DNA from: an uncultured Chitinophagaceae bacterium
GTDB lineage: Bacteria; Bacteroidota; Bacteroidia; Chitinophagales; Chitinophagaceae
Length of the DNA stretch: 5,243 bases
NCBI GenBank assembly: GCA_946885335.1
Contig: CAMPGG010000248.1
Location: forward strand, 1-5,243
Reading direction: 5' to 3'
The notes beneath the pieces were generated by a model. It saw nothing but the letters and a program-made list of their open reading frames with translations, ran no database searches and had not been told where the DNA came from. The position numbers and the translations under genes are program-made. The first letter of the stretch is position 1, and each line of letters starts with the position of its first letter. This document shows, piece by piece, positions 1 to 5,243 of the stretch.

Positions 1-270
1 AATAAGTTTTTTGATTATATCCATGCCGGTTTGCCACAGGTTTGTATGAACTACCCGGAATATAAAAGAATCAATGATACTTACCAGGTGGCCCTGCTGA
101 TCAATGACCTTAAACCTGAAACAATTGCGAGAGCTATAAACAATCTGCTCACTAATGATGTTTTATATAAACAATTACAAGAAAACTGTTTAAAAGCACG
201 GGCTTTTTTAAACTGGCAACAGGAAGAAAAAAAGCTTTTGGATATTTATGCATCAACTTTTGAAAAATAA
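1..270 (+). CDS. Glycosyltransferase (GT4-like), C-terminal fragment
   Basis: The reading frame is open from the first base, so the gene begins upstream of the window and only about 89 C-terminal residues are visible. The frame opens with NKFFDYIHAGLPQV, which resembles the donor-binding region of GT-B fold glycosyltransferases of family GT4 (usual form KxxDYxxxGxPVV). A helical tail follows (PETIARAINNLL, then LNWQQEEKKLLDIYASTF), typical of the end of such enzymes. The likely role is transfer of a sugar from a nucleotide-activated donor to a cell-surface glycan or lipid; the substrate cannot be told from this fragment. The end overlaps the next glycosyltransferase-like gene by 23 bp in another frame, suggesting translational coupling in a polysaccharide-type operon. 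The internal ATG at 46 should not be taken as the start, because the conserved motif lies before it. Confidence 0.8.
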   Translation, partial: NKFFDYIHAGLPQVCMNYPEYKRINDTYQVALLINDLKPETIARAINNLLTNDVLYKQLQENCLKARAFLNWQQEEKKLLDIYASTFEK

Positions 271-1387
271 ACACCTTCATATTGTTTGTCTCGATGTACC
301 ATTTCCACCGGATTATGGCGGGGCCGTTGATATGTTTTATAAGATCAAAACCCTCCATGAACTGGGCATCAAAATCCACCTGCACTATTTCTGTTATAAC
401 CTGCGTGGTAACCCAAATGAATTAAATGGTTATTGCGAATCGATCCATATTTATGAACGCAAAACCGGGCATAAAAGCTTTTCATTCGATTTGCCTTACA
501 TCGTTTCATCAAGAATAAATAATACGCTGATTGAAAACCTGAATAAGGATAACCATCCCGTTTTGCTGGAAGGCATTCATTGTTCAGGAGTTGTTCGTTA
601 CCTGCAGCCCACTAACAGAAAAATCCTGGTACGGTTGCACAACGATGAAAGTGCTTATTATAAACAACTGGCAGATGCTGAACTTCGATTTTTAAAGAAA
701 ATGTATTACAGGAACGAAGGAAGGTTGCTACATACCTACCAGCAATCCTTACCCGAAAATTGCCTGTATGCAGCCATTTGTGAAAAAGACGTATCAGTTT
801 TTAATAACCAGTATCATCTCAAAAACACGATTCACCTGCCGGCATTTATTCCTTATACCAAGGTGGAATCACAGGAAGGCATTGGTAATTTTTGTCTTTA
901 CCACGGGAATCTTGCTGTTGCTGAAAATGAAAAAGCGGCAACCTGGTTATTACAAAAGGTGTTTACCAAAATAAATATCCCATTGGTTATTGCAGGAAAA
1001 AATCCTACCGAAAAATTGCAGAAGCTGGTTCATATGTATGAAAATGCCTGCCTGGTTGCAGATCCATCCGGAACGGAAATGGAAGAATTAGTTCAGAAAG
1101 CACAGATCAATGTAATTCCTTCTTTCAATACTACAGGCGTAAAATTAAAAGTGTTGCAGGCTATTTTTGCCGGCCGGCATTGTGTTGTTAATGAAGCCGC
1201 AGTATCCGGATCCGAAGTAGAACCTGCCTGCCATATCGCTGCGAATGCAGAAGCAATGGCTTCAATCATAATGCAATTGTATCGCCAGCCATTTGCAGAA
1301 GAAGAAATTTTATTACGTAAAAAAATTCTGCAGCATCATTACGACAATATAAACAATGCAGAAACGATTATAGCATTGTTATGGTAG
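248..1387 (+). CDS. Glycosyltransferase-like protein (GT-B fold, family 4-like)
   Basis: A complete 379-residue protein, a normal length for a GT-B glycosyltransferase. The N-terminus (residues 9-40) reads HLHIVCLDVPFPPDYGG followed by a helix ending in LHELG. This is the usual first beta strand, glycine-rich loop and helix of GT4 enzymes. LVRLHNDES (128-135) looks like the end of the N-terminal domain. The C-terminal Rossmann half starts near FCLYHGNL (215-222) and continues with PLVIAGKNP (245-253) and INVIPSFNTTGVKLKVLQAIFAGRHCVVN (287-315), the region that normally binds the nucleotide sugar. The classical E-x7-E pair is not obvious there; Q304 sits where a Glu or Asn is often seen. The ATG at 248 is chosen because it places the first beta strand close to the N-terminus, although it overlaps the upstream gene by 23 bp. 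No signal peptide or membrane segment is seen, so it is probably cytoplasmic or peripheral. Donor and acceptor are unknown. Confidence 0.78.
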   Translation: MHQLLKNKHLHIVCLDVPFPPDYGGAVDMFYKIKTLHELGIKIHLHYFCYNLRGNPNELNGYCESIHIYERKTGHKSFSFDLPYIVSSRINNTLIENLNKDNHPVLLEGIHCSGVVRYLQPTNRKILVRLHNDESAYYKQLADAELRFLKKMYYRNEGRLLHTYQQSLPENCLYAAICEKDVSVFNNQYHLKNTIHLPAFIPYTKVESQEGIGNFCLYHGNLAVAENEKAATWLLQKVFTKINIPLVIAGKNPTEKLQKLVHMYENACLVADPSGTEMEELVQKAQINVIPSFNTTGVKLKVLQAIFAGRHCVVNEAAVSGSEVEPACHIAANAEAMASIIMQLYRQPFAEEEILLRKKILQHHYDNINNAETIIALLW

Positions 1388-2057
1388 CATTATCAATCAC
1401 CTGGCCGCGTTCCGTACGAACAACTCTTGCCGGGTATTTATTAATAACCATGTAATCATGCGTTGCCATAACAATAGCCGTGTTGAATTCTTTGGAGATC
1501 TGGAAAAGCAATTGCATGATCTCGTCTGAAGTTTCGGGATCAAGATTTCCTGTAGGTTCATCAGCCAGTATCAACTTTGGAGAGTTTAATAATGCACGGG
1601 CAATATCAACTCTTTGCTGCTCGCCACCGCTTAATTCATGCGGCATTTTAAACCCTTTTGATTTTAAACCCACTTTATCCAATACATCAATGATTTTATC
1701 ATCCATCAGTTTGGCATTGGTCCAACCGGTGGCACGCATTACAAATTTTAAATTCTCATTGATGTTCCTGTCAGTCAATAATTGAAAATCCTGGAATACC
1801 ACGCCCAGTGTTCGGCGCAGGTAAGGAATTTTGCGCCAGGTAAGTTCACGCAGATTATAGCCGGCAATGGTGCCCTCGCCTTCTTTTAATGGTAATTCGC
1901 CATAAAGCGTTTTTAATAAGCTTGATTTACCGGTTCCTGTTTTTCCTACCAGGTATACAAACTCTCCTTTATTAACCACCAGGTTTACATCCTGTAAAAT
2001 CAGGTTTTCGCCCTGGAAAATGCTTACATTTCTCAACTCTATAATTGCTTCAGCCAT
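1368..2057 (-). CDS. ftsE: FtsE-like ABC transporter ATP-binding protein
   Basis: A 229-residue single-domain ABC ATPase with every catalytic motif intact: Walker [10 protein letters not shown] (38-46), Q-loop Q89 in VVFQDFQLL, signature LSGGEQQR (142-149), Walker B LILADEPT (162-169) with catalytic E167, D-loop NLDP (171-174) and switch H200 in MATHD. Length and the motif set fit the FtsE/LolD branch. In FtsE the ATPase pairs with the membrane protein FtsX and drives periplasmic peptidoglycan hydrolase activation during division. The FtsE assignment over LolD or MacB-type ATPases is by overall resemblance and is moderately sure. No permease gene lies in the window, so the partner must be encoded elsewhere. 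The start is the ATG at 2057 ([11 protein letters not shown]); an in-frame TTG at 2081 would add 8 residues not expected in the family. The gene runs convergently into the glycosyltransferase-like gene, with the two 3' ends overlapping by 20 bp. Confidence 0.85.
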
Positions 2058-2122
2058 GTTTATTTTAAAAGTTTGATGCAAAATAACGGAATTGAAGTCA
2101 AACCCCCGTTAAAATGGGGCAA

Positions 2123-2138
2123 AAAGGAAATCTCCTTT
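2123..2138. repeat. Short perfect inverted repeat in the divergent intergenic region
   Basis: AAAGGA (2123-2128) and TCCTTT (2133-2138) form 6-bp perfect arms around a 4-base loop. Just to the left, CCCC (2104-2107) and GGGG (2116-2119) form a second, weaker pair around 8 bases. The site lies between the ftsE-like gene on the minus strand and the BlaI-type repressor gene on the plus strand. It could be a regulator site or a small hairpin in a 5' leader. No T-tract makes it a convincing terminator, and no gene ends here. The rest of 2058-2160 shows nothing else that can be supported. Confidence 0.3.
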
Positions 2139-2163
2139 CAATCCTGCAAAAAAATATTTCTAA

Positions 2164-2179
2164 AACTAAATAATTAGTT
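2164..2179. promoter_or_regulatory. Putative BlaI-type operator, distal copy
   Basis: AACTAA-ATAA-TTAGTT is an inverted repeat with 6-bp perfect arms and a 4-base spacer, 49 bp upstream of the BlaI-family start codon. BlaI/MecI/CopY repressors bind as dimers to short dyads in their own promoters, classically with TACA/TGTA cores. The core here is ACTA/TAGT, so assignment to this repressor rests on position, symmetry and repetition, not on a match to the classical site. Confidence 0.6.
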
Positions 2180-2207
2180 GTTAAACTAAAATATTAGTTA
2201 TACTTTC
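2178..2207 (+). promoter_or_regulatory. Possible promoter of the repressor-M56 operon
   Basis: The Bacteroidota consensus is TTTG near -33 and TAnnTTTG near -7. Here a TTG at 2178-2180 is followed, about 20 bp on, by TACTTTC at 2201-2207, an imperfect match to the -7 element. The spacing is plausible and the proposed elements overlap or touch the proximal operator, as expected for a repressed promoter. The match is weak, and the placement relies mostly on context. Confidence 0.3.
2184..2199. promoter_or_regulatory. Putative BlaI-type operator, proximal copy
   Basis: AACTAA-AATA-TTAGTT repeats the arms of the distal copy exactly, with a different 4-base spacer. Its centre is 20 bp from that of the first dyad, about two helical turns. 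The intervening TTAGTT-GTTA-AACTAA also has a 4-base spacer, so the four half-sites sit at an exact 10-bp period (2164, 2174, 2184, 2194). This would place bound dimers on one face of the helix and allow cooperative repression of the repressor-M56 operon. Confidence 0.62.
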
Positions 2208-2228
2208 AACTTCTCAAGTCAAAAAAAC

Positions 2229-2600
2229 ATGAAAACCCTTACAAAGGCAGAAGAACAATTAATGCAGGTATTGTGGAAAATTGAAAAAGGATTTATCCGC
2301 GATATCATGGACGCATTGCCGGCACCTAAGCCCCACCAGAATACGGTAGCCACCATTTTGAAAATATTAGTGGAAAAAAATTTTGCAGGCATTCATGTAG
2401 TGGGTCGTAACCATGAATATTACCCGCTGGTGAAAAAAACGGAATATTCAAAGAAGACCATGAAGCAAATGATGAAAGGATATTTCGGCGGCTCGTTCAG
2501 CAATGTTGTTTCATTTATGGTGAAAGAAAACAATATCAGCATTGAAGAACTGGAAACTTTACTGGAACAAATCAAGAAACAGCAAAACGCAAAGAAATGA
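2229..2600 (+). CDS. BlaI/MecI/CopY-family transcriptional repressor
   Basis: A 123-residue protein, the usual length for this family. Residues 3-68 form a winged helix: LTKAEEQLMQVLWKIEKGFIRDI gives helix 1 and the start of helix 2, HQNTVATILKILVEK (36-50) is the recognition-helix region, and HVVGRNHEYYPLV (56-68) is the wing. The rest (about 70-120) is a charged helical tail, the dimerisation segment in BlaI and MecI. Family members bind promoter dyads as dimers and are released when a partner M56 membrane protease is activated and the repressor is cleaved. Two matching dyads lie just upstream. The stop overlaps the start of the M56 gene as ATGA, indicating translational coupling and a paired repressor-receptor unit. 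The first part of the protein (MKTLTKAEEQLMQVLW) is well conserved in Bacteroidota homologs. Target genes beyond this operon are unknown, and a role in beta-lactam resistance should not be assumed. Confidence 0.92.
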   Translation: MKTLTKAEEQLMQVLWKIEKGFIRDIMDALPAPKPHQNTVATILKILVEKNFAGIHVVGRNHEYYPLVKKTEYSKKTMKQMMKGYFGGSFSNVVSFMVKENNISIEELETLLEQIKKQQNAKK

Positions 2601-3871
2601 AAGAGATCCTGTTCTACTTCCTGCAGGTTATAATTATCTCAGGCTTACTTTATTGTTATTACCACTTCTTTCTGCGTAATAATAAATTTCACCGTTACAA
2701 TCGCTTCTATTTATTAGGTGCAACGGTCGTCAGTTTAATTTTACCATTTCTTGATTTCACCTTCTATTTTAAATCAGAGGCAGATATTCCCGCTATTTAC
2801 CAGGTTCTTTCAGTTGTTCGCGTAGGTGATAATATCAATCAAACTTTATCCCCGGCTATAGCCTTGAATTTGCTATTAAATATTTTTTACTTTCTTATTA
2901 CAGTAGTCCTTTTATTTCGATTTTCCTTTTCATTGTTTAAACTTAAAAGACTCCTTGCTAAATATCATTCAAAAAAAATGGACCGTGTTTTATTTGTAAA
3001 CACAAATGAAGATGGTACCCCTTTTTCATTTTTCCATTGGTTATTCTGGAACGAAAATATTCCCCTTAATACATCAAGCGGGCAAAAGATATTAAAGCAT
3101 GAGTTATTCCATATTCAGCAAAAACATAGCTTGGATATAATCTTCCTTGAATTATTATCTATTTTTTATTGGGTAAATCCCTTCTTCTATATTATTAAAA
3201 AGGAAATAAAAGTTATTCATGAATTTCTCGCCGATCAATATGCATCTAATCAACAAAATAAAGGAGAATATGCAGAATTGTTGCTGATGCAGGTTTTAAA
3301 GACAAATCAAAAGCTTATCAATCCTTTTTTTCACAACCAAATTAAAAGACGCATTGCCATGATCACTAAATCAACACAACCTGGCCATACATTTATTCGT
3401 AAAATAATGGTTTTACCAATTATCGCTATTGTAATAAGTATGATAGTAATTAATTGTACATCAAAAGATGCAATGGAGAATGAAGAAGCAACAAAAATTG
3501 ATGTATCCACTCATACCAATTCCTCAGACCAGGAGAATAAATTAACGATTGAACAAGCCAAAAATGAACCTTCATTTCGAGGAGGTCAAATTCAATGGCG
3601 TAAATATCTTGAAAAGCAGCTCAATGCTAATATTCCTGTTGACAATGGGGCTCCTGAAGGAACGTATACAGTAGAAGTTGAATTTGTTGTAGGCGTAGAT
3701 GGTTTTATCAGTAATGTAAAAGCATTAACGAATCATGGATTTGGGATGGAGGAAGAAGTTCTTGAGTTAATTAAAAAAGGTCCTAAATGGGTACCCGCCG
3801 AACAAAATGGGGAAAAAATAAAAGCCATTAAAAAACAGCCGGTAACATTTGTAGTTTCTAAAGATTTATAG
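2597..3871 (+). CDS. BlaR1-like M56 membrane metallopeptidase with C-terminal TonB-like domain
   Basis: A 424-residue membrane protein. Hydrophobic segments near residues 5-22, 36-54, 88-110 and 270-287 give the four-helix plan of BlaR1/MecR1 receptors, with a further hydrophobic stretch at 183-200 inside the protease. The cytoplasmic zinc protease shows HELFH (168-172) and a downstream HEFLAD (208-213), where E209 with D213 fits the gluzincin ExxxD third-ligand motif, so the protease looks active. After the last membrane segment a polar linker (about 288-322) leads to a domain at about 325-422: FRGG, WRKYLEKQL, YTVEVEFVVGVDGFISNVKAL, then a final VTFVV strand. This resembles the TonB C-terminal domain; by BlaR1 topology it should be periplasmic. 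It replaces the penicillin-binding sensor of BlaR1. The gene overlaps the repressor gene by 4 bp and is followed 38 bp later by a paralog. The likely role is sensing an envelope signal and inactivating the adjacent repressor. The ligand is unknown, and the gene looks more AT-rich than its neighbours. Confidence 0.88.
   Translation: MKEILFYFLQVIIISGLLYCYYHFFLRNNKFHRYNRFYLLGATVVSLILPFLDFTFYFKSEADIPAIYQVLSVVRVGDNINQTLSPAIALNLLLNIFYFLITVVLLFRFSFSLFKLKRLLAKYHSKKMDRVLFVNTNEDGTPFSFFHWLFWNENIPLNTSSGQKILKHELFHIQQKHSLDIIFLELLSIFYWVNPFFYIIKKEIKVIHEFLADQYASNQQNKGEYAELLLMQVLKTNQKLINPFFHNQIKRRIAMITKSTQPGHTFIRKIMVLPIIAIVISMIVINCTSKDAMENEEATKIDVSTHTNSSDQENKLTIEQAKNEPSFRGGQIQWRKYLEKQLNANIPVDNGAPEGTYTVEVEFVVGVDGFISNVKALTNHGFGMEEEVLELIKKGPKWVPAEQNGEKIKAIKKQPVTFVVSKDL
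2666..2727 (+). repeat. 62-bp perfect direct repeat, copy 1 (inside first M56 gene)
   Basis: Identical base for base to 3979-4040, including all third codon positions, and in the same reading frame of the paralogous genes. A wider block (2631-2737 against 3944-4050) differs at only 8 of 107 positions. It encodes the first cytoplasmic loop and second membrane helix (FFLRNNKFHRYNRFYLLGAT). The genes diverge clearly elsewhere. Confidence 0.9.
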
Positions 3872-3909
3872 TAGGGAATAAAAATCTTAAAAACATTTAA
3901 TTATTTCAA

Positions 3910-5243
3910 ATGAAAGTAATTTTTATTGCCATATTTCAAATCATAATTACTTCAGGCTTATTATACTGTTATTACCATTTCTTTCTGCGTAATAATAAAT
4001 TTCACCGTTACAATCGCTTCTATTTATTAGGTGCAACGGTTATCAGTTTATTGATCCCATTTTTAAAGATCCCCTTATATTTTACAAGTGAAGAAGCAGA
4101 TGCTTCTATCCTGTATCGTTCCATGCAAATAATAAATGGACAGGAAGAAGTTATTGTAACTGAGAACAATTTTAGCTGGCAGCAATTATTTACCTGGCAA
4201 AATATAAGCATCGGCGTTTATGTACTGGTTACGTTGATTATTCTTGTAAGGCTGGTCATTGCGCTGAAGAGAATTATCCGTTTAAGGTACCAGTATCCTT
4301 CTGCACGCATTGAAAACATTCAATTCATAAAAACAACGGAACCCGGTACACCCTTTTCTTTTTTTAGCTGGCTGTTCTGGAATAAAAAAATTGAAGTGCA
4401 GAGTGAAAAAGGACAACAAATATTCCGGCACGAATGGTTCCATATTCAGCAAAAACACAGTTTTGATATTATGTTCATGGAATGGCTAACGGTTTTATGC
4501 TGGTTCAATCCATTTTTTTACCTGGTGAAAAAAGAACTAAAAACCATTCATGAATTCCTGGCAGATGAATTTGCTGTTCAACATTTCTCTAAAGGAGCAT
4601 ATGCAGAACTGTTACTCATGCAGGCATTTGATACCGAACACAAAATTGTAAACCCATTTTTTCATACACAAATAAAAAGACGCATCGCTATGATCACCAC
4701 TTCTTCAAAACCCGGTTACCAGTACCTGCGAAAAATTATGGTACTGCCTGTTTGCGCATTAGTCATAACCCTTTTTGCATTTACTTATCAAAGCAAAGAA
4801 GCATTGCCAGTATTATTACCAGGTGAAAAAATTACAGTGGTCATAGATGCAGGACATGGTGGAGAGGACAATGGCGCCAATGCTACAAATTCATTTGAAA
4901 AAGATATCAATCTTGAACTGGCAAAGGCAGTAGCTGCAATGAACCAGGACCCTAACATTGAAATTGTACTGACAAGAGAATCTGATGAAAGTATTCCATT
5001 GCAAAGCCGCACGGAAATAGCTGAAAAAAGAAAAGCCGACCTGTTTATCTCATTGCATGTTGGCGCTGCCGGACCAATGGCCGATGGAAAAATAAATGAG
5101 AAAAAGAATGGTATTGAAGTTGTTGTTTCCCGTAAGAATAAAACGTTTGATTTACAAAACCGTGCATTGGCATCTTATATGATCAGCCAGTTTGAAAAAA
5201 CTTATACCACTAACAAGTCAATCCTGGTAAAGCAAACCGGAAT
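3910..5243 (+). CDS. M56 (BlaR1-like) metallopeptidase fused to N-acetylmuramoyl-L-alanine amidase, 3' end beyond window
   Basis: The frame from ATG 3910 stays open to the window end: 444 full codons with no stop, so the protein is partial here. Residues 1-293 are a paralog of the preceding M56 protein. They have hydrophobic segments near 4-22, 36-54, 100-118 and 276-293, protease motif HEWFH (174-178) and HEFLAD (214-219), with E215 the expected third zinc ligand. A very short linker (QSKEALPVLLPGE) replaces the long one of the paralog. From about 307 an Amidase_3 domain begins: VIDAGHGGED with zinc ligand H316, FEKDINLELA with E330, LTRESDE, LQSRTEIA and LFISLHVG with H383. Enzymes of this family cut the amide between N-acetylmuramic acid and L-alanine of peptidoglycan. 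By BlaR1 topology the domain should face the periplasm, fitting a wall-binding sensor or active hydrolase. The family's catalytic Glu near the C-terminus would lie outside the window. The 38-bp gap to the upstream gene has no terminator, so co-transcription is likely. Confidence 0.88.
   Translation, partial: MKVIFIAIFQIIITSGLLYCYYHFFLRNNKFHRYNRFYLLGATVISLLIPFLKIPLYFTSEEADASILYRSMQIINGQEEVIVTENNFSWQQLFTWQNISIGVYVLVTLIILVRLVIALKRIIRLRYQYPSARIENIQFIKTTEPGTPFSFFSWLFWNKKIEVQSEKGQQIFRHEWFHIQQKHSFDIMFMEWLTVLCWFNPFFYLVKKELKTIHEFLADEFAVQHFSKGAYAELLLMQAFDTEHKIVNPFFHTQIKRRIAMITTSSKPGYQYLRKIMVLPVCALVITLFAFTYQSKEALPVLLPGEKITVVIDAGHGGEDNGANATNSFEKDINLELAKAVAAMNQDPNIEIVLTRESDESIPLQSRTEIAEKRKADLFISLHVGAAGPMADGKINEKKNGIEVVVSRKNKTFDLQNRALASYMISQFEKTYTTNKSILVKQTG
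3979..4040 (+). repeat. 62-bp perfect direct repeat, copy 2 (inside M56-amidase gene)
   Basis: Exact copy of 2666-2727, displaced by 1313 bp, which equals the distance between the two start codons. The 5' ends of the two genes therefore align without gaps. It marks a tandem duplication with later sequence exchange, or unusually strong constraint on this segment. Confidence 0.9.

Follow-up and report, generated by a model that had tools for sequence, protein, structure and literature searches.

A BlaI-associated M56-Amidase_3 fusion of Chitinophagaceae as a candidate BlaR1-like antirepressor with a peptidoglycan-sensing domain

The closest described counterparts of the system reported here are the membrane antirepressors BlaR1 and MecR1, in which an M56 protease is paired with a repressor of the BlaI/MecI type and a penicillin-binding domain acts as the sensor. 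To our knowledge, the means by which members of the Bacteroidota monitor the condition of their cell wall are largely an open question. The present analysis concerns a stretch of 5,243 nucleotides (the window) from an uncultured Chitinophagaceae bacterium (GenBank assembly GCA_946885335.1, contig CAMPGG010000248.1, positions 1 to 5,243), in which a gene fusing an M56 protease to a peptidoglycan amidase domain of the Amidase_3 family follows a blaI-type gene (Table 1). On balance, and with modest confidence, we propose that the fusion represents a BlaR1-like membrane antirepressor in which a peptidoglycan-sensing amidase stands in place of the penicillin-binding domain. This proposal is based on the fusion itself, in which the M56 motif and the zinc ligands of the amidase are intact, on the presence of blaI in the gene row, and on the palindromes that precede blaI.

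In the window protein, Pfam Peptidase_M56 matched residues 165 to 262 with 44 bits (cut-off, 31; profile positions 190 to 296 of 296), and Amidase_3 matched residues 310 to 435 with 92 bits (cut-off, 27; profile positions 1 to 119 of 174), both scores exceeding the curated cut-offs. HEWFH begins at residue 174 and HEFLAD at residue 214, while the zinc ligands, whose roles were assigned by alignment to CwlD/CwlV-type amidases, are His316 within DAGHGG, Glu330, and His383 within ISLH; the initial annotation, which had reported these motifs and both domains in one open frame, was thus borne out. Every active-site residue up to the window end is intact, the position of the catalytic Glu falling past that end, and in an alignment of homologues the HExxH and HExxxD residues did not vary (121 of 121). 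Residues 277 to 293 probably lie in the membrane, as judged from their sequence, and a model of the relative P0002 has a helix (residues 279 to 289) in this fourth-membrane-helix region. Neither the window fusion nor P0002 has a Pfam penicillin-binding (transpeptidase-like) domain, the sensor place being occupied by Amidase_3, and the curated BlaR1 model of NCBIfam scored 17.3 bits on the window's cut-off fusion protein against a cut-off of 400; given the absent domain and the missed cut-off, the fusion is not a BlaR1. Its initial description as a BlaR1-type M56 protease whose sensor position is taken by an amidase is supported by the Pfam matches, by the neighboring blaI gene, and by structural comparison of the model of a close relative, which matched Amidase_3 enzymes and, more weakly, BlaR1. 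To that description the present analysis adds the upstream blaI, the paired palindromes, the tandem M56-TonB paralogue, and, in relatives, a frequent extension of the chain past the amidase into TonB_C or plug-like modules.

Two relatives, P0001 and P0002, are 96% and 91% identical to the window protein across the whole query, 124 distinct fusion open reading frames (ORFs) were read from genome loci, and both Pfam families were matched in 55 of 55 aligned relatives. The fusion is, therefore, considered real, and a frameshift or chimera joining two genes, a doubt raised by the initial annotation along with possible absence of the architecture from related genomes, is excluded. The survey of Bacteroidota that it had proposed found the fusion to be common. 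A homologue search scored 7999 candidates and yielded 5017 homologues, of which 120 were listed, and both Pfam families were present in 103 of these 120; a scan of genome contigs with the window protein as sole query confirmed nothing. A profile of fusion amidases, A1, had matches in 136 of 394 genomes from the family to which Parafilimonas terrae belongs (E <= 1e-22), and fusions were present in at least 118 of the 394, one per genome (116 of the 130 loci read, plus L085 and L086). The named isolate P. terrae DSM 28286 carries one (L005). When 395 genomes were drawn phylum-wide, 20 matched A1 at E <= 1e-28, 7 of them with fusions. The architecture is thus centered on the Chitinophagaceae-like family and occurs sporadically elsewhere (L009 and L011, labelled Flammeovirgaceae). 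It is already annotated in databases, where such proteins are named "M56/M15 family metallopeptidase," "N-acetylmuramoyl-L-alanine amidase," or "bla regulator protein blaR1"; full-text searches of the open-licence literature listed no title or abstract describing an M56-Amidase_3 fusion, and the hits PMC12578637 and PMC12204202 proved to match through coincidental wording.

The association with blaI is nearly constant: 120 of the 124 distinct genome fusions are preceded on their own strand by a BlaI relative, which in 117 of them is at most 150 bp from the fusion frame. The four others comprise L144 and L155, at contig ends, and L112 (genome G168) and L115 (genome G084), for which about 556 and 537 bases were read upstream. 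In the window, a tandem M56-TonB_C paralogue stands between blaI and the fusion, and since all three genes share one strand, with a 4-bp overlap of blaI and the paralogue and 38 bp from there to the fusion, they likely form an operon. An adjoining second M56 gene of this kind was present in only 3 of the 124, one of which resembles a split frame. BlaR1 cleaves BlaI between Asn101 and Phe102 (PMC9834060). Residue 97 of the window BlaI, a Met, aligns with MecI Phe102, and this position is conserved as a hydrophobic residue (Met, Leu, or Phe; 121 of 121); the M56 domain of the fusion may accordingly cut BlaI near Phe96-Met97.

Upstream of blaI, the palindrome AACTAA-N4-TTAGTT was exact in 92 of 121 regions (window included) and, when up to one mismatch was allowed, present in 109, compared with 0.4 of 121 base-shuffled regions. 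Two or more palindromes (at most one mismatch) occurred in 104 of the 121, most commonly 20 bp apart (43 regions), and the last one ended a median of 14 bp before the presumed blaI start codon. It is these 121 regions that carry the weight, a scan of the window by itself with two mismatches being uninformative, as 44 of 200 shuffles reached two matches. The paired palindromes are, on this pattern, predicted to constitute the BlaI operator. They are unlike the BlaI box, TACA-N-TGTA, and TACA-N(1-3)-TGTA was found before blaI in 0 of the 121 regions.

Table 1. Positions of the genes, domains, and predicted sites within the 5,243-nucleotide window
Feature	Positions	Strand	Remarks
Glycosyltransferase gene	248..1387	+	Precedes the FtsE-like gene
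FtsE-like ABC ATPase gene	1368..2081	-	230 bits to the FtsE model, below its cut-off of 265
Palindrome AACTAA-N4-TTAGTT, copy 1 (predicted BlaI operator)	2164..2179		Exact
Palindrome AACTAA-N4-TTAGTT, copy 2 (predicted BlaI operator)	2184..2199		Exact; follows copy 1 at a 20-bp spacing; blaI start codon 29 bp downstream
blaI-type repressor gene	2229..2600	+	Penicillinase_R, 98 bits
Candidate BlaI cleavage place, Phe96-Met97	2514..2519	+	From alignment to MecI
Tandem M56-TonB_C paralogue	2597..3871	+	Pfam Peptidase_M56 and TonB_C; overlaps blaI by 4 bp, 38 bp before the fusion
M56-Amidase_3 fusion gene	3910..5241	+	444 open codons; runs off the window end
Peptidase_M56 match	4402..4695	+	HEWFH, 4429-4443; HEFLAD, 4549-4566
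Probable fourth membrane helix (residues 277-293)	4738..4788	+	From sequence; adjoins the amidase on its N-terminal side
Amidase_3 match	4837..5214	+	Zinc ligands His316, 4855-4857; Glu330, 4897-4899; His383, 5056-5058

CwlD requires Glu199 for its function, as reported for E199A (PMC8496864); in P0002, the residue aligned with the corresponding Glu of known amidases is Glu460. Of 313 fusion rows in which each of the four sites was covered, 306 distinct fusions were retained after removal of P0108, which has no Pfam amidase, and of 6 rows whose amidase duplicated that of another. Zinc ligands were intact in 305 of these; the exception, P0105, kept in the set as the sole zinc-ligand loss, has a degenerate amidase with alterations in DAGHGG and at the second zinc His, and its M56 domain is intact. 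The catalytic position was occupied by Glu in 271 of the 306 and was substituted in 35 (Gln in 25, Asn in 3, His in 2, Ala in 2, and Asp, Met, and Gly in 1 each), six of the substituted fusions having been inspected residue by residue; substitution by Gln likewise inactivates such amidases. Among the fusions from genome loci, 11 of 124 had lost the Glu, that of L112 having Gln. A FastTree tree of 308 fusions, which contains many long branches and leaves out P0105, P0108, and rows below 430 residues, implied 24 changes at the catalytic position, 20 of them forced by well-supported branches, while a smaller tree of 92 under a mixture model gave 8 changes for the Gln label, 6 of them forced; some of these changes may be regains. 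Because the Glu was lost repeatedly while the zinc ligands were kept, hydrolysis appears to be dispensable in some lineages; of the two roles offered by the initial annotation, a sensor or a hydrolase under protease control, the pattern leans toward sensing or binding.

Palindromes also occur away from the blaI-fusion pair. In 8 genomes with 17 exact sites, the number of sites was not regarded as raised over that of a mirrored pattern (10 sites), and only their location stood out; 45 further genomes had 88 exact and 64 mirrored sites. Among the matches listed, 22 loci were read whose sites are not immediately in front of a blaI-fusion pair, together with 20 of 41 mirrored sites as a control: 18 of the 22 precede a start codon and 3 lie inside genes, compared with 4 and 12 of the 20 (P = 1.3e-4 for the start-codon contrast). 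Six of the 22, and none of the 20 mirrored sites (P = 0.02), precede genes for outer-membrane barrel or receptor-like proteins (Pfam OMP_b-brl_3, CarboxypepD_reg, or Plug), a class represented by 10 of 1964 flank genes; two further sites (L228 and L229, from two genomes) precede genes for mutually similar CarboxypepD_reg proteins. Sites at L266, L272, and L274 precede other blaI-M56 pairs, those at L239 (G148) and L269 (G077) precede a gene that encodes a MacB-like ABC permease and adjoins the blaI-fusion pair, and the remaining genes are diverse. It is tentatively suggested from these sites that BlaI also controls distant outer-membrane receptor-like genes. Palindromes with one mismatch were considered as a regulon and not used, with 8 to 13 per genome against 41 to 66 mirrored (G003, G004, G005, G006, and G167); in these same genomes, the one-mismatch palindrome is outnumbered 3- to 7-fold by the mirrored form. 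At L241/L244 (G004:C3:378538-378573), two one-mismatch palindromes lie exactly 20 bp apart between divergent genes, with no blaI or M56 gene in the 3 kb read, which may represent a distant target.

In the proposed mechanism, the amidase domain would be located outside the inner membrane, its pocket binding peptidoglycan or muropeptides in the periplasm. Ligand binding would shift the membrane helices and thereby free the cytoplasmic M56 site, which would then cut BlaI at the candidate place. Cut BlaI would leave the paired palindromes, resulting in derepression of blaI, the M56-TonB paralogue, and the fusion, and possibly of a few distant outer-membrane receptor-like genes. In members without the catalytic Glu, signaling would have to work without hydrolysis, whereas in those with it, cutting may serve to terminate the signal or to trim the wall. 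In a wider and more doubtful formulation, such antirepressors built on the BlaR1 plan would comprise amidases repeatedly turned into non-cutting sensors and a new predicted BlaI operator controlling outer-membrane receptor-like proteins, and would couple the condition of the wall to the makeup of the outer membrane in Bacteroidota.

Several observations temper this reading. Most members keep the catalytic Glu, including, among the matches listed, the closest relatives P0001 to P0005, and the Glu is also absent from 6 of 97 standalone amidases (P = 0.61 versus fusions), for which reason its loss was rejected as a mark specific to fusions. All 6 belong to the 17 standalone ORFs below 260 residues, none of the 80 longer ones being Glu-less (P = 0.004), and a further 13 standalone amidases included one short protein (L303) with Leu at the catalytic position; loss of cutting thus appears to be tolerated in receptors and in short, secreted-looking forms, with the zinc site kept. 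Short amidases of about 200 residues (L213, L218, L220, L210, L216, L217, and L303) carry Ser, Tyr, or Leu in place of the catalytic Glu, with the zinc ligands intact, and at L213, L218, and L220 the short Glu-less amidase lies beside a Glu-bearing copy. The wider regulon, for its part, is a lead and not a result, since the outer-membrane target class was set after the hits were known.

The retained Glu also speaks for receptor and effector being one, that is, for a conventional wall hydrolase attached to the inner membrane, the amount of which is set by BlaI-M56 or the activity of which is altered by M56 self-cleavage. The palindrome sites, moreover, lie mostly in front of the operon itself (10 of the 17 exact ones in the 8 genomes), and at L112 and L115 an exact palindrome directly precedes the fusion frame with no blaI in the bases read. 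This explanation is, however, confronted with the 35 Glu-less fusions, which occur in many lineages and keep the zinc ligands and the same operon type, and we regard it as unlikely though deserving of attention. Less likely again, the amidase may be a peptidoglycan anchor which holds TonB_C or plug-like modules at the wall, the signal being the state of outer-membrane TonB-dependent transport. Behind the amidase, TonB_C was matched in 23 and Plug in 12 of the 55 relatives, the P0002 chain continuing from a complete amidase into SusC-plug-like repeats and having a Pfam Plug match; the window paralogue has TonB_C without an amidase, and the six outer-membrane sites described above would fit. Such modules are, however, dispensable, many fusions of only about 490 to 530 residues ending near the amidase, and the support from the palindrome targets is tempered by the late definition of that class. 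An assembly or frameshift artefact, suggested by a window that consists of a single contig piece ending within the gene and by the resemblance of the P0001 N terminus to the window's upstream paralogue, is contradicted by the 124 genome ORFs, that of P. terrae DSM 28286 among them, and can be dismissed. Peptidoglycan sensing is, therefore, favored over both the regulated hydrolase and the TonB/plug anchor.

Beyond the operon, a conserved downstream gene was sought in the 117 copies with a next gene and none was found, nor was there a dominant same-strand family; in 61 of the 117, the next gene lies at most 150 bp away on the opposite strand. L239 also carries the glycosyltransferase and FtsE-like genes of the window, and in G084 a separate contig holds the blaI-M56 pair of L266 with two palindromes. 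The two M56 genes of the window share 86.6% identity over 142 bp near their 5' ends and 69% in a later block, a difference which suggests local gene conversion between them. A role as part of a defence system was considered and rejected, PADLOC returning nothing for P0002 and one weak match for each neighbor (E = 0.0046 and 0.0013).

If peptidoglycan sensing is correct, a common protein family would provide a direct line from wall to transcription, and its natural Glu-less members would separate binding from cutting in a system whose repressor is defined and whose operator is predicted. The BlaR1 chassis would then represent a general receptor with exchangeable sensors which is not bound to beta-lactams.

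Among known systems, the locus most resembles BlaR1/MecR1 with BlaI/MecI, with which it shares the M56 gluzincin motifs (HExxH/ExxxD), a blaI-type partner gene, and an extra domain after the last membrane helix; a structural match of the M56 part, weaker than those of the amidase, is tentative. It differs in bearing Amidase_3 where BlaR1 has its penicillin-binding sensor. That sensor is itself a penicillin-binding domain turned receptor, to which an amidase turned sensor would be the parallel. Bacteroidota M56-TonB_C proteins ("energy transducer TonB," "M56 family metallopeptidase"), of which the window paralogue is one, use the same M56 chassis without an amidase between it and the C-terminal module. 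Unlike CwlD, CwlV, AmiA/B/C, and LytH, the fusion amidase sits behind a protease membrane domain and has had its catalytic Glu replaced in some members. A precedent for a regulatory amidase homologue is CwlM, which differs in being cytoplasmic and in activating MurA (PMC4946905). For wall fragments in the Bla circuit, the precedent is a peptidoglycan dipeptide that acts on BlaI/MecI, in this case by binding the repressor in the cytoplasm (PMC3305447), whereas the fusion would meet its ligand in the periplasm.
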